A DNA stretch of 39,242 nucleotides from Rhodospirillaceae bacterium (GTDB lineage: Bacteria; Pseudomonadota; Alphaproteobacteria; CACIAM-22H2). Of this stretch, positions 20,186-37,628 are shown piece after piece. Below the pieces are notes generated by a model. That model searched no databases. It worked only from the letters and a program-made list of their open reading frames with translations, and had not been told where the DNA came from. The translations under genes and the position numbers were made by a program. Every line of letters starts with the position of its first letter. The first letter of the stretch is position 1. The stretch spans positions 1 through 39,242 of the forward strand of contig JALHMR010000043.1 of assembly GCA_022843945.1 (NCBI GenBank). Direction: 5' to 3'.

Positions 20186-20572
<387 letters not shown>

Positions 20573-20653
20573 ATTACTTTCAGCCTAATATTCAAGCTTT
20601 TTCAAGGCCGTAAGGACCCGATCGGGGCCGCGTGTCAAGAATTGGCCAAACCG

Positions 20654-20668
20654 GAACATAAAACGAAC
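20654..20668. promoter_or_regulatory. Putative LexA (SOS) box, GAAC-N7-GAAC
   Basis: GAACATAAAACGAAC is a perfect match to the direct-repeat SOS box of alphaproteobacteria (GAAC-N7-GAAC, equal to GTTC-N7-GTTC on the other strand). It is framed by ACCGG and CCGGT. It lies 260-274 bases before the mraZ start and about 110 bases before the proposed mraZ promoter. Only eight bases are specified, so chance occurrence is possible; position in the regulatory gap raises the likelihood. Confidence 0.5.
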
Positions 20669-20771
20669 ATACCGGTGCCCCAATCCGCGATGAAATTCTG
20701 CCCCTTGGGAATCAAGCTCTGGTGGGTTCTCCACCCGCTAATCCCATAAACCATAAGCGTTTTTCGGGAGC

Positions 20772-20779
20772 TTAACCAT
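20772..20779 (+). promoter_or_regulatory. CtrA-type half-site TTAACCAT
   Basis: TTAACCAT matches the 8-base CtrA motif reported for Caulobacter and overlaps the first base of the -35 element TTGACG. A GAATC (GANTC) site lies 59 bases upstream. CtrA and CcrM/GcrA control of division genes is known in alphaproteobacteria; here it is inferred from motif and position only. Confidence 0.4.
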
Positions 20780-20807
20780 TGACGCCCATTACTTCCCATG
20801 ATATCCC
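20779..20807 (+). promoter_or_regulatory. Putative promoter of mraZ and the dcw cluster
   Basis: TTGACG (20779-20784), 17-base spacer, then TATCCC (20802-20807). The -35 is identical to that of rnpB; the -10 matches the consensus only in its first half. Transcription would start near 20814, giving a leader of about 114 bases. The TGGGN repeats cover the spacer, -10 and start region. Confidence 0.45.
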
Positions 20808-20819
20808 ATATCGTCCCAT
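20784..20819 (-). promoter_or_regulatory. MraZ operator: four TGGGN repeats with 10-base period
   Basis: Four CCCAT words lie at 20785, 20795, 20805 and 20815, exactly 10 bases apart. On the minus strand this reads TGGGA-N5-TGGGA-N5-TGGGA-N5-TGGGC. The E. coli MraZ site is described as direct TGGGN repeats separated by 5 bases, so this is the same format with four units. The block covers the likely promoter, which fits autorepression of mraZ and downstream genes. Confidence 0.85.
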
Positions 20820-20927
20820 ATAGGCGCTTTTGCGGCCGCGTGGCGCTGAGGGACGCTGGGAAATGGATATTTCCTAGCCCAACCAAGGGGTTGGACCCGA
20901 AATTCACGCGCGGCTGGCGGGACGTCG

Positions 20928-21374
20928 ATGAAGGCTTTTGCCGGCAGCTTCACCTTCAAGGTGGACAAGAAAGGGCGGGTTTCCGTCCCGGCGGAGTTTC
21001 GCGTCGTCCTGGCCGCGCAGGCCGCCGGTTCGGACTTCACCGGCTTCCTGGCGTTCCCCTGGTTCGAATACCGGGCCGTGCGCGGCTGCGGCGTGGAGCT
21101 GATGGAGCGCATCGCCCAGAATCGCAGCCCGACCGCCGTCTTCGAGAACCAGCCGGTCGACAACGCACTCGTCTCGGTGGCCGACATGATGCAGCTGCCC
21201 TTCGATAGCGAGGGCCGCATCGTCCTGCCGCGCGATCTGGCGGAGCACGCCGGGATCACCGAGAGCGCGACCTTCGTCGGCCAGGTCAATTTCTTCGAGC
21301 TGTGGAACCCGGCCGCCTTCAAGCAGCACCAGGCGGCGCGACGGGCGCTCCGCTCACCGGCAACGGGGAGCTGA
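20928..21374 (+). CDS. mraZ: Transcriptional regulator MraZ
   Basis: The 148-residue protein carries two AbrB-like swapped-hairpin halves: [16 protein letters not shown] (10-25) and [19 protein letters not shown] (92-110). MraZ forms ring-shaped oligomers and binds TGGGN repeats in its own promoter, repressing the division and cell wall cluster. Such repeats are present 109-144 bases upstream. The ATG at 20928 is preceded by a GGCGGGAC segment as modest ribosome binding site. It is the first gene of the cluster and is followed 4 bases later by rsmH. Length and position are normal. Confidence 0.96.
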
Positions 21375-21378
21375 CGCC

Positions 21379-22371
21379 ATGCCCGCGGCGGTCAATACTC
21401 CCCCCGCCGAGACTCCCGCCTCCGGCTCGCACGTCCCGGTCATGCTGGACGAGGTGCTGCGCGCGCTGCAGCCGCGCAATGGCGCCGTCTATGTCGACGG
21501 CACGTTCGGTCGCGGCGGCTACACCGCCGGCCTGCTCAACCTCGCCGCCTGCAAGGTCTACGCGATCGATCGCGATCCGCAAGCGATCGCGCAAGGGCGC
21601 ACGCTGCGCGAACGCTTCGCCGGGCGGCTGGAGCTGATCGAAGGCCGCTTCGGCGACATGGAAGCGCTGCTGGCCGAGCAGGGCGTCACGGCGGTCGACG
21701 GCATCGTCTTCGATCTCGGCGTGTCTTCGCCGCAGATCGACGAGGCGGCGCGCGGCTTTTCCTTCCGCGCCGACGGCCCGCTCGACATGCGCATGGGCCG
21801 CGACGGCACCACCGCCGCCGACCTGGTGAACCAGCTTCCCGAGCAGGAGCTCGCCGACGTCATCTGGCAGTACGGCGAGGAGCGCCACGCCCGGCGCATC
21901 GCCCGCGCCATCGTCGCGGCCCGCGCCACGGCACCCATCGCGCGGACCACGGAACTCGCCGGCATCGTGCGCCAGGTCGTGCGCAAGTCGGCCGACGGCA
22001 TCGACCCGGCGACCCGCACCTTCCAGGCGCTGCGCATCCGGGTCAACGACGAGCTCGGCGAGCTGCAGCGCGGCCTGGCTGCCGCTGAAAGGCTGCTCGC
22101 CCCGGGCGGCTGGCTCGCGGTCGTCTCCTTCCATTCGATGGAGGATCGGCAGGTCAAGAATTTCATGCGGACGCGCGCCGGCGAGAGCGACCGCGGCTCG
22201 CGCCATCGGCCGGAGGTGGCGCGCCACGCCCCCAGCTTCCGTCTCGCCACGCGCAAGGTGCTGCGCCCGTCCGACATCGAGACCCGCTTCAATCCCCGGG
22301 CCCGCTCCGCCCGGCTGCGCGCCGCGCAGCGCACGGACGCCCCCGCCTGGCCCGCCGAGGAAACAGCATGA
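21379..22371 (+). CDS. rsmH: 16S rRNA m4C1402 N4-methyltransferase
   Basis: The 330-residue enzyme (also MraW) methylates N4 of C1402 in 16S rRNA, next to the decoding centre. Family signs are [10 protein letters not shown] (18-27), the SAM-binding [15 protein letters not shown] (39-53), [20 protein letters not shown], and late [16 protein letters not shown] short N-terminal extension (about 17 residues rich in Pro, Ala and Thr) precedes the conserved core, so an alternative internal start is conceivable but none stands out. The stop overlaps the ftsL start by ATGA (22368-22371). Confidence 0.97.
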
Positions 22372-22820
22372 TCCGCCTCGGCAACCTCTTCTGGGTCGCC
22401 CTCGCCGGCACGCTCGGCTACGGGCTCTACCATCTCAAGCACGAGGTGAAGGCGCTCGAGGACGAGCTCTTCCGCCTCAACCGCCAGATCCTCGCCGAGC
22501 AGCAGGCCATCCATGTCCTGCGCGCGGAGTGGAGCTACATCAACCAGCCTCAGCGCCTGCAGTCACTCGTCCAGCGTCATCTTGATCTACAGCCTACCAA
22601 GCCTGCACAGATCGGCACGCTCGCGACTCTCCCCGTGCGGCCTGCCGAAGCCCCGGCGCCGGTTGCTGCTGATTCCTCCCCAGCAGCACCGGCGCCGGCG
22701 GCGCCTTCGCTGAAATCCAAGACCACCAGCGTGACCGCGGCCCCGGCCGGGGCGGCCAAAACCGTGCAGCGCGCCCCCGTGCTTGCCGCGCATGAAACCC
22801 CCGCCGCGGGAGGGCGCTGA
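22368..22820 (+). CDS. ftsL: Cell division protein FtsL
   Basis: The 150-residue bitopic protein has a membrane helix at about 4-22 ([20 protein letters not shown]) and then a coiled coil (about 24-55, [32 protein letters not shown] in heptad-like form) with the family pattern [26 protein letters not shown]. It should join FtsB and FtsQ in the divisome and help activate FtsW-FtsI. About 70 residues of Ala/Pro-rich, low-complexity tail follow the conserved part, longer than in enterobacterial FtsL (about 120 residues). It overlaps rsmH by 4 bases and ftsI by 1 base (TGATG at 22818-22822). Confidence 0.92.
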
Positions 22821-24520
22821 TGGCGACACGCCTTTCCGATGTCCTGCGCGGCCTGCCCGCCCGCCTGCGCCTCGAAGGCACGGCGAAGCAATCGGTCGAG
22901 ACCGCGCATCACCGCCTGATGGTCGCCGGCGTGCTCTTCGCCGTCGGCTTCGCCGTGGTCAGCCTGCGGCTGGTCGACGTGACCATGCTCAAGGAAGGCC
23001 ATGAGCCGCGTATCGCGCACCATAACCGCGCCACCGGGCTCGAGCGCGAGCGCGCCGATATCGTCGACCGCAACGGCGAATTGCTGGCGACCTCGCTCGG
23101 CACCGCCTCGCTCTACGCCAACCCCAAGCTGATCCTCGACGCCAACGACGCGGCAGCAAAACTCGCCAAGGTGCTGCCCGGCAGCGGCGAGCGCGAGCTC
23201 GCCAATCGCCTCGGCTCGGACAAGAGCTTCGTCTGGGTGAAGCGCAACCTCAGCCCTCGCCAGCAGTTCGCCGTGAACCGGCTGGGCATTCCCGGCCTGT
23301 TCTTCCAGCGCGACGAGCGGCGGGTCTACCCGCATGGCGCGCTCACCGCGCACATCCTCGGCTTCACCGACATCGACAATCGCGGTCTCGCCGGCATCGA
23401 ACAGTCCTTCGACGAGAAGCTGCGCCAGAGCGACACGCCGCTGCAGCTCTCCATCGACATTCGCCTGCAGCACGTGGTGCGCCAGGAGCTGGCGGCGGCG
23501 GTCGAGGAGTTCCGCGCCATCGGCGGCGCGGCCCTGGTGCTCGACGCGCCGACCGGCGAAGTGCTCGCCCTGGTCTCACTGCCCGATTTCGACCCCAACG
23601 CGCCGGGCGCCACCGACAGCGAGGCGCGCTTCAACCGCATCACGCTGGGCACCTACGAGCCGGGCTCCACCTTCAAGATCTTCAACGCCGCGGCGGCCCT
23701 CGACTACGGCGTGACCACGATGCGCGACGGCTACGACGCCTCCAAGCCGATCCAGATCTCGCGCTTCACCATCTCCGACTACAAGGGCCAGAAGCGCTGG
23801 CTGTCGCTGCCCGAGATCATGATGCACTCGTCGAACATCGGCTCGGCGCGCATGGGCATCGATCTCGGCCGCGACCGCCAGCGCCAGTTCCTCTCGCGCC
23901 TCGGCATGCTCAAGCCGGCGACCTTCGAGCTGCCCGAGGTTGCCGCCCCGCTGGCCCCCAATCCCTGGCGCGACATCAACGTCATGACCATTGCCTTCGG
24001 CCACGGCATTTCCGTCACGCCCCTGCAAGTCGCGGTCGGCGTCTCGGCGGTGGTCAATGGCGGCATCCTGCGTCCGGCCACGCTTATGCGCCGGCCCGAG
24101 GGCCAGGTGCCCCCCGGCGAGCGCGTCATGACGACGCGCACCTCCGAACAGGTCCGGGCGCTGATGCGCCTGGTGGTCGAGCGCGGTACCGCGAAAAGCG
24201 CCAACGTTCCCGGCTACGTGGTCGGCGGCAAGACCGGTACGGCCGAAAAGATCGTCAAGGGCCGCTATCACCGCGACATGCGGATTTCTTCCTTCGCTGG
24301 TGCGTTCCCCATGCAGGCACCGCGCTTCGTGATCTACGCCATGCTCGACGAACCCAAAGGCAACAAGGCGACCCACGGCTATGCAACCGCCGGCTGGGTC
24401 GTCGCCCCCCTCGTCGGACGCCTGGTGAGCCAGATCGCCGCTCTCTACGGGCTGCCGCCCGTCGACGAGAGCGGCCCGGAACTACGCGATCAATTGCTGA
24501 TCAACGTGGCTGTCCGCTGA
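22820..24520 (+). CDS. ftsI: Peptidoglycan transpeptidase FtsI (PBP3)
   Basis: The 566-residue class B penicillin-binding protein has an N-terminal membrane anchor (about 33-50), a pedestal region starting RADIVDRNGELLATSL, and a transpeptidase domain with all three active-site motifs: Ser283-x-x-Lys286 in PGSTFKIFN, SSN at 337-339 in MMHSSNIG, and Lys471-Thr-Gly in GGKTGTAEK. It cross-links septal peptidoglycan together with the glycosyltransferase FtsW encoded downstream. Its start overlaps the stop of ftsL by one base. Length is typical for alphaproteobacteria. Confidence 0.97.
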   Translation: MATRLSDVLRGLPARLRLEGTAKQSVETAHHRLMVAGVLFAVGFAVVSLRLVDVTMLKEGHEPRIAHHNRATGLERERADIVDRNGELLATSLGTASLYANPKLILDANDAAAKLAKVLPGSGERELANRLGSDKSFVWVKRNLSPRQQFAVNRLGIPGLFFQRDERRVYPHGALTAHILGFTDIDNRGLAGIEQSFDEKLRQSDTPLQLSIDIRLQHVVRQELAAAVEEFRAIGGAALVLDAPTGEVLALVSLPDFDPNAPGATDSEARFNRITLGTYEPGSTFKIFNAAAALDYGVTTMRDGYDASKPIQISRFTISDYKGQKRWLSLPEIMMHSSNIGSARMGIDLGRDRQRQFLSRLGMLKPATFELPEVAAPLAPNPWRDINVMTIAFGHGISVTPLQVAVGVSAVVNGGILRPATLMRRPEGQVPPGERVMTTRTSEQVRALMRLVVERGTAKSANVPGYVVGGKTGTAEKIVKGRYHRDMRISSFAGAFPMQAPRFVIYAMLDEPKGNKATHGYATAGWVVAPLVGRLVSQIAALYGLPPVDESGPELRDQLLINVAVR

Positions 24521-24549: not shown

Positions 24550-26001
24550 GTGCGCTTGAGTCGACTATCAGAGCTAGCACCCGCGTCGGCCACGCCGGAT
24601 CCCGAGATTCTCGGGATCACGGCGGATTCGCGCGCCGTGCGGCCGGGCTGGCTGTTCGCCGCCCTGCCCGGCGCCAAGGCCGATGGCCGGACCTTCGTCA
24701 GCGACGCGCTGAGCCGCGGCGCTGCCGCCGTGCTGGCCGAGCCCGGCCTAGACCTGCCGGCCAGCGTCGTGCCCGTCGCCTCGCGCAACCCGCGCCGGGA
24801 CCTCGCCCTCATGGCGGCGAAGTTCCACAGCGCCCAGCCGAAACACGTGGCGGCCGTCACCGGCACCAACGGCAAGACCTCGGTCGCCTCCTTCGTCCGC
24901 CAGATCTGGACCCGGCTTGGCCTGCAGGCCGCCAGCCTGGGCACGCTCGGCCTGGTGGCGCCGCATCGCGAACGCGCGGGCGCCCTGACCACGCCCGATC
25001 CGGTGGCCCTGCATGCCGATCTCGCGGAACTGGCGGGAGAAGGCATCGATCACCTGGCCATCGAGGCGTCGAGCCACGGCCTGTCGCAGCATCGCCTGGA
25101 CGGCGTACGCGTGACCGCCGCGGCCTTCACCAACCTGACCCGCGATCATCTCGACTATCACGGCACGATGGCGGCCTATTTCGCCGCCAAGAAGCGCCTG
25201 TTCGCCGATGTCATGGCGCCGGGCGGTACCGCCGTGCTCAACGCCGATACGCCCGAGTTCGCCGAGCTCGAGCGCCTGTCGCGCGCCGCCGGCCACCGGG
25301 TCCTCGCCTATGGCCGCTTCGGCGGCGAGATCGCCATCGAGACCCTGGCGCGCGAGCCGCACGGCCAGCGCCTGGAGATCAAGGTGCTGGGGCGGCCGGC
25401 CGCGGTCGAACTGCCGCTGGTCGGCGAGTTCCAGGCGATGAACGCGCTGGCCGCGCTTGGCCTGGTCATCGGCACCGGCGGCAATGCCGACCGCGCGGTC
25501 GCCGCCTTGGCCCAGCTCGACGGCGTCCCCGGCCGCCTGCAGCGCGCCGCCCTGCGCAAGAACGGCGCCGCCGTCTATGTCGATTACGCGCACACACCCG
25601 ATGCACTGGAGACGATCCTTACGGCCTTGCGGCCCCACGCCGCCAGGCGCCTGGTCGTGGTCTTCGGCTGCGGCGGCGACCGCGACGCCGGCAAGCGCCC
25701 GCAGATGGGCGCCATCGCCACGCGGCTGGCCGACACGGTGTACGTCACCGACGACAATCCGCGCACCGAGGACGCGGCGCTGATCCGCCGCGCCATCATG
25801 GCCGCCAGCCCCGGCGCCACCGAGATCGGCGATCGCCGCCAGGCCATCTTCACCGCCGCCGCCGGCCTCGAAACCGGCGACCTGCTGGTCCTCGCCGGCA
25901 AGGGCCACGAGCGCGGCCAGATCGTCGGCGCCAAGACCCTGCCTTTCGACGACGTGGCCGTCGCCCGCGAAGCGGTTCAAGCCGCTGAGGAGGGCGCATG
26001 A
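24550..26001 (+). CDS. murE: UDP-MurNAc-L-Ala-D-Glu: meso-diaminopimelate ligase
   Basis: The 483-residue cytoplasmic Mur ligase adds the third residue of the stem peptide. ATP-binding loop VTGTNGKTS is at 103-111. The substrate-selecting motif is DDNPR at 401-405, the form that specifies meso-diaminopimelate, so the wall is of the Gram-negative type. The domain order is normal (UDP-binding, central ATPase, C-terminal Rossmann-like). Start is GTG at 24550, with GAGGA-like bases just before it; a TTG two codons later is an alternative. The 29-base gap after ftsI is the widest before mraY. The stop overlaps murF by ATGA. Confidence 0.97.
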   Translation: MRLSRLSELAPASATPDPEILGITADSRAVRPGWLFAALPGAKADGRTFVSDALSRGAAAVLAEPGLDLPASVVPVASRNPRRDLALMAAKFHSAQPKHVAAVTGTNGKTSVASFVRQIWTRLGLQAASLGTLGLVAPHRERAGALTTPDPVALHADLAELAGEGIDHLAIEASSHGLSQHRLDGVRVTAAAFTNLTRDHLDYHGTMAAYFAAKKRLFADVMAPGGTAVLNADTPEFAELERLSRAAGHRVLAYGRFGGEIAIETLAREPHGQRLEIKVLGRPAAVELPLVGEFQAMNALAALGLVIGTGGNADRAVAALAQLDGVPGRLQRAALRKNGAAVYVDYAHTPDALETILTALRPHAARRLVVVFGCGGDRDAGKRPQMGAIATRLADTVYVTDDNPRTEDAALIRRAIMAASPGATEIGDRRQAIFTAAAGLETGDLLVLAGKGHERGQIVGAKTLPFDDVAVAREAVQAAEEGA

Positions 26002-36374: not shown

Positions 36375-37628
36375 GTGATTTTGAAGAAGAAGAAATCCCG
36401 CAGCGGACTGATTGCCGCGCTCGATGTCGGCTCGACGAAGATCGCCTGCTTCATCGCCAAGCTCGAAGGGCAGGAGCCGCGTGTCGTCGGCATCGGCCAC
36501 CAGGTGTCGAAGGGTGTGCGCGGCGGTGCCGTCGTCGATCTCGAGGCGGCCGAGTCCTCCATCCTCAACGCGGTCAGCGCCGCCGAGCAGATGGCCGGCG
36601 AATCACTTGAGTCGGTGATCGTCAACGTCGCCGGCGGCCAGCCCGAATCGCGCACCGTGAAGGTCGAAGTCTCGCTGGCCGGCCACGAGATCGGCGACGC
36701 CGATCTGCGCCGCGTGCTGGCGCAGGGCCGCGCCCAGGCCCAGCACGCCGAGCGCCACCTCCTGCATGCCATTCCGGCAGGCTTCACCATCGACGGCAGC
36801 CGCGGCATCCGCGACCCGCGCGGCATGTTCGGCGAGAAGCTCGGCGTCAACATGCACCTGGTCACGGTCGACACCGGCGCCGTGCGCAACCTCGCCGCGG
36901 CCATCGGCCGCTGCCGGCTCGATGTCGACGAGGTCGTGGTCAGCGCCTATGCGGCGGGCCTTGCCGCCCTGGTCGAGGACGAGCTCGATCTCGGCGCCAC
37001 GGTCATCGACATGGGCGGCGGCACGACCAGCGTCGCCGTGTTCAACGGCGGCGAGTGCGTCTACACCGACATCGTGCGGCTCGGCGGCACACACGTCACC
37101 AACGACATCGTCCAGGGCCTCAACACGCCGCTGGTCCATGCCGAGCGCATGAAGACGCTCTACGGCAGCGCGCTGGCCTCCCCGGCCGACGAGCGCGAGA
37201 TCATCGACGTGCCGCTGATCGGCGAGGACGAGCACGCCCAGGCCAACCACGTGCCCAAGTCCATCCTCACCGGCATCATCCAGCCGCGCCTGGAGGAGAC
37301 CTTCGAGCTGGTGCGCGCGCGCCTGGCCACGGCCGGGTTCGACCGCATCGCCGGCCGCCGGGTCGTGCTGACCGGCGGCGCTTCGCAGCTTCAGGGGGTG
37401 CGCGATCTTGCCGCCCTCATCCTCGACAAGCAGGTGCGGCTCGGCCGCCCCGTGCGTCTGCCCGGCCTCGCCGATCAGACCGGCGGGCCGGCTTTCGCCA
37501 CCTGCGCAGGCCTCATCGCTTTCGCGCTGCATCAGAACGCGCAGGCGCTGAAACCGTCGACCGCGTCCGACACCACGGCCGGCGGATGGTTCACCCGTGT
37601 CGGGCTTTGGCTGCGGGAGAACCTGTGA
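36375..37628 (+). CDS. ftsA: Cell division protein FtsA
   Basis: The 417-residue actin-like protein anchors FtsZ filaments to the membrane. Actin-fold motifs are AALDVGSTKIACFIAKL (14-30), the second phosphate loop ATVIDMGGGTTSVAVF, and LTGGASQLQGV near the C-terminal part. An amphipathic membrane-targeting end is visible in WFTRVGLWLRENL. Start is GTG at 36375, preceded by CGAGGAC at normal distance. It lies between ftsQ and ftsZ, as in other alphaproteobacteria. Confidence 0.96.
   Translation: MILKKKKSRSGLIAALDVGSTKIACFIAKLEGQEPRVVGIGHQVSKGVRGGAVVDLEAAESSILNAVSAAEQMAGESLESVIVNVAGGQPESRTVKVEVSLAGHEIGDADLRRVLAQGRAQAQHAERHLLHAIPAGFTIDGSRGIRDPRGMFGEKLGVNMHLVTVDTGAVRNLAAAIGRCRLDVDEVVVSAYAAGLAALVEDELDLGATVIDMGGGTTSVAVFNGGECVYTDIVRLGGTHVTNDIVQGLNTPLVHAERMKTLYGSALASPADEREIIDVPLIGEDEHAQANHVPKSILTGIIQPRLEETFELVRARLATAGFDRIAGRRVVLTGGASQLQGVRDLAALILDKQVRLGRPVRLPGLADQTGGPAFATCAGLIAFALHQNAQALKPSTASDTTAGGWFTRVGLWLRENL

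Follow-up and report, generated by a model that had tools for sequence, protein, structure and literature searches.

A predicted LexA operator at a conserved distance upstream of the mraZ promoter in Alphaproteobacteria

The window, that is the whole stretch of 39,242 nucleotides analyzed here, carries the gene for RNase P RNA class A (rnpB, 20187..20575; Rfam RF00010, 296 bits) followed by a dcw cluster, all on the + strand. The cluster opens with mraZ (20928..21374; PF02381 MraZ, 62.5 bits) and rsmH/mraW (21379..22371; PF01795, 329 bits), continues through ftsI (PBP3; 22820..24520; PF00905/PF03717) and a Mur ligase gene in the murE position (24550..26001; PF08245/PF02875), and includes ftsA as a distal gene (36375..37628; PF14450/PF02491). 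The placement of rnpB immediately 5′ of mraZ (20187-20928) is a common gene order across the class. An initial annotation of this DNA had reported a full SOS box in the gap between rnpB and mraZ, and this was borne out, the gap measuring 352 bp: the predicted LexA operator GAACATAAAACGAAC (20654..20668, + strand) is an exact 15-bp GAAC-N7-GAAC direct repeat with the AT-rich spacer ATAAAAC. The palindromic ACCGG/CCGGT frame that had been noted around the site did not hold up, as the congener has TTA-GAAC...GAAC-ATGCTGG in its place, and we rejected it as a local coincidence. By itself, the site is weak evidence because a 39-kb window gives one by chance about half of the time; when the window was shuffled 100 times with its dinucleotides preserved, 55 of the shuffles held at least one GAAC-N7-GAAC. 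Genome-wide, the motif has 72 matches versus 59 for a reversed control pattern, and from these counts the chance of a site in the 352-bp gap comes to about 0.5%.

Two checks proposed with the annotation, a search for the same site at the same place in relatives and a genome scan with comparison of scores, were carried out. Within the genus, the comparison is with one congener, G001, whose rnpB-mraZ gap is split over two contigs; here 17 consecutive bases (GAACATAAAACGAACAT) are identical at the mraZ site while the rest of the gap is clearly diverged. In the same family, exact sites precede mraZ in genera g1, g2, g3 (two), g4 and g6, and genus g7 has degenerate sites. Genus g5 is without the direct repeat before mraZ, and most of its members have an inverted GAAC-N7-GTTC at a fixed place. 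This inverted repeat, mostly GAACGNAACGTGTTC (L037, L041, L042, L045, L046, L049, L053), lies about 206 bp upstream of mraZ, just 5′ of the mraZ -35, and three more g5 members have a degenerate form of it, GAACAGACCGTGTCC. The class-wide sample was gathered by similarity to this MraZ, with families counted by their labels. Its first batch drew 133 regions from 82 families, and 64 of these regions have an exact GAAC-N7-GAAC no more than 450 bp upstream of mraZ, compared with a mean of 1.25 and a maximum of 6 in dinucleotide shuffles. The signal is specific to both half-site and spacing: 11 alternative half-sites of equal composition gave 0-3 matches in the 133 regions, and other spacings of the GAAC repeat gave 0-7. 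A further 38 regions, retrieved later as an independent second batch, gave a similar rate, and over both batches the exact site is present in 83 of 171 mraZ upstream regions and in 57 of 100 alphaproteobacterial families. That more than half of the sampled families have the site at this position suggests that much of the class may couple DNA damage signaling directly to its main operon for division and the cell wall.

Comparison with the lexA gene itself allowed us to relate the mraZ site to the motif of the host regulator. This genome encodes one LexA (PF01726), and its gene (C17) has GAACCAAACTAGAAC approximately 70 bp upstream of the DNA-binding domain, with the same GAAC-N7-GAAC motif as the mraZ site. 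Across the family, GAACYAAA[CA]TAGAAC or a one-base variant precedes lexA in 21 of 22 upstream regions, in closely similar forms (GAACCAAACTAGAAC, GAACTAAACTAGAAC, GAACCGAACTAGAAC, GAACCAAAATAGAAC); the lone exception, a second lexA-like copy in genome G019, has GAACGCAAATAGAAC, which is still an exact GAAC-N7-GAAC. Elsewhere in the class, the exact site was found upstream of 23 of 30 lexA genes. Use of this motif by the host LexA, on which the annotation had depended, is thus supported, with GAACYAAACTAGAAC preceding lexA here and in nearly all family members. The recA upstream regions of the family carry GAACAAA-N4-G[TA]AC, and the GTAC form often occurs twice. When the exact GAAC-N7-GAAC sites of the genome are ranked by a matrix built from lexA and recA sites alone, the mraZ site comes 9th of 72, its score of 18.9 being below the 29.7 of the lexA site. 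As a second SOS yardstick we looked at dinB of this genome and found no near-exact box. At L031 and the other lexA loci of the family, genus g5 excepted, the lexA box is followed after about 25 bp by a second box, reversed and with one mismatch (GAACAAAGNCGCAAC type), which suggests that operators may be paired at lexA. Two further high-scoring LexA-type boxes of this genome lie between genes. The first (L019, 1501-1515) has a radical SAM gene of the PA0069 family on one side and an unknown gene of 144 aa on the other; the second (L113, 1258-1272) is flanked by genes for a DAP epimerase and an N6-methylase-like protein. The genes beside these boxes are candidate SOS genes.

The mraZ-upstream site also follows the presence of lexA, as called from one HMM. 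By genome, the site is found in 78 of 141 lexA-positive versus 1 of 26 lexA-negative cases (Fisher p=5e-7), and by family in 53 of 79 versus 0 of 17 (Fisher p=1e-7). The single lexA-negative genome with a site is a MAG with 10% contamination, and its sister genome has lexA. The exact site is absent from 63 of the 141 lexA-positive genomes, g5 and g7 of the same family among these. Since lexA-negative genomes are mostly small, genome reduction may account for part of the co-occurrence.

Downstream of the box, the gap contains a promoter of the TTGAC-17/18-TATCCC pattern, with the -35 box TTGACG at 20779..20784 and the -10 box TATCCC at 20802..20807 (both + strand). Four CCCAT repeats with 10-bp spacing (20785, 20795, 20805 and 20815; together 20785..20819, + strand) overlap this promoter as MraZ boxes and are conserved across families, and the promoter pattern itself is clear in 107 of 133 mraZ upstream regions, representing 65 families. 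CCCA repeats resembling MraZ boxes reach 5′ of the four promoter boxes, both in the window (20743-20819) and in aligned regions of other families; counted from the -10, positions -57 and -47 have a conserved C, and these upstream repeats are clearer in genomes with a LexA box than in others. The LexA box usually lies about 270 bp upstream of mraZ. With the -10 placed using the -35 as anchor, the distance from the box center to the -10 is 141 bp here and 139 bp in the congener, and falls at 165-174 bp in 22 of 45 family-level cases of the first batch and 5 of 15 of the second. The distance from rnpB to the box varies widely, and much more than that from the box to the promoter. The constant distance to the one and the variable distance to the other tie the box to the mraZ promoter and not to rnpB, so that read-through from rnpB, which had been offered as an alternative target of the damage signal, is left without specific support.

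From conservation across families, the match to the LexA motif, the co-occurrence with lexA and the constant distance to the MraZ-box promoter, we consider it highly probable that LexA has a functional operator here, one that serves the mraZ-dcw transcription unit and has been conserved since ancient times. This analysis observed the box and its conservation, the motif match, the dependence on lexA across genomes and the constant promoter distance; from them we infer that LexA occupies the box, in which direction it regulates, by which route, and with what effect on division. The proposal made for this locus at the outset, an SOS input to mraZ-dcw transcription, gains support from the motif shared with lexA, the occurrence in 57 of 100 families, the co-occurrence with lexA and the fixed promoter distance. 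LexA bound to the box would hold part of mraZ-dcw transcription down, and after DNA damage RecA would trigger LexA cleavage and free the transcription so held.

There are two possible routes for such control. In the first, to which we give a little less than an even chance, LexA would repress a second promoter that coincides with the box or adjoins it, and a transcript from there would run through the MraZ-box promoter into mraZ. Repression of a promoter at its own box is the ordinary mode of LexA action. A transcript of this kind would raise MraZ, the operon's own DNA-binding regulator, along with the division and wall genes. No promoter-like pair was found at the box in this gap, and no consensus promoter overlaps the box uniformly across families. 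Some families, but not this genome, have a CATAAT where the box ends on the right, and it could be the -10 of an upstream promoter there. In several families (for example L044, L052 and L074) the box is followed by an extended block, GAACATAATTTTGCCAYATTYTC, that may hold a -10 and a start site or else bind a further protein.

Alternatively, LexA may act from afar, as repressor or activator, on the MraZ-box promoter approximately 140-170 bp downstream, through looping or through contact with RNA polymerase or MraZ; we regard this second route as tenable and advance it tentatively. The lack of a uniform promoter at the box is in its favor, as is the retention of the 165-174 bp distance in about half of the families across an interval that is itself unconserved in sequence (mean ungapped identity 31%). 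LexA repression from about -180 would be unusual and counts against it, as does the reversed orientation of the box in 18 of the 83 site-bearing regions. Helical phasing of box and promoter would fit action at a distance, and outlier distances of the first batch favored a 10.45-bp period (jitter p=0.002), but the second batch did not replicate this (V=0.15, p=0.26); phasing was rejected and is not claimed. By either route, LexA cleavage would alter mraZ-dcw transcription after DNA damage. If LexA were an activator from afar, dcw expression would fall after DNA damage and cells would divide more slowly.

A less favored explanation, which we think unlikely, is that the stretch from the box to the mraZ promoter encodes an sRNA or leader peptide under LexA control. 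Its position would be like that of UpsM of Rhodobacter, which in R. sphaeroides starts 268 nt upstream of mraZ (PMC5089854), near the usual place of the box; that paper is silent on LexA and SOS. An Rfam search of the interval gave no match, no conserved ORF was found between the box and the mraZ promoter, and no terminator was found in 20560-20935 of the window. Among 63 regions, 6 had terminator-like structures in the interval versus 2.7 expected, and a 19-aa ORF at 20690 lacks its start codon in the congener. On these grounds we rejected the idea that the interval conceals a small ORF, an sRNA or a terminator, and with none of them found mraZ-dcw is the most plausible target. A chance match, or the motif of another regulator, is very improbable despite the frequency of such sites in window-sized shuffles, given the excess over shuffled mraZ regions, the specificity of half-site and spacing, and the co-occurrence with lexA.

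If the LexA operator reading is true, the damage response would also set the supply of the division machinery, via an operator that stands, across much of the class, ahead of the complete operon of division and cell-wall genes, and MraZ would gain a testable physiological context. More speculatively, LexA might govern the alphaproteobacterial dcw operon from a fixed distance 5′ of an autoregulated MraZ promoter, such that a single promoter would receive signals of DNA damage and of division-gene dosage through two repressors. Such an arrangement could be ancestral and stand in place of inhibitors dedicated to stopping division in the SOS response.

The motif itself is familiar. SOS boxes of the forms GAAC-N7-GAAC and GTTC-N7-GTTC have been described in Caulobacter and Rhodobacter (PMC12700426, PMC13384398), and the same direct repeat is found here, also before lexA; the main texts of these two papers name neither mraZ nor dcw among the targets of LexA. 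Our literature search found no paper joining LexA, mraZ and Alphaproteobacteria, a result that does not prove novelty, as subscription journals lay outside the search. The one LexA-mraZ precedent in the literature searched is from gut Firmicutes, where a LexA site precedes an mraZ homologue, as here, and is bound by B. subtilis LexA in EMSA (PMC3998124). That case differs in phylum and LexA motif and concerns a single target from a metagenome, for which the accessible text describes neither a conserved position nor a promoter architecture. In Rhodobacteraceae, UpsM is a 5′-leader sRNA of the dcw cluster with a terminator and no proximal mraZ promoter (PMC5089854). For Caulobacter, the same paper places the start site of mraZ no more than 70 nt from the gene. 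The present locus is like UpsM in having a regulatory input about 270 bp upstream of mraZ, although no LexA is reported for UpsM (PMC5089854). In contrast to UpsM, the window has no terminator before mraZ (20560-20935) and has a strong proximal MraZ-box promoter, TTGACG-17-TATCCC, so that the features of an UpsM-type leader sRNA are absent from it.

Control of division during the SOS response is usually ascribed to separate inhibitor proteins such as SulA, SidA and YneA. In the particular case of Caulobacter, the documented link between LexA and division is a dedicated inhibitor, SidA. The arrangement proposed here is like SulA, YneA, DivS and SidA in coupling SOS to cell division, and unlike them in that the predicted LexA target is the division operon itself rather than a separate inhibitor gene.
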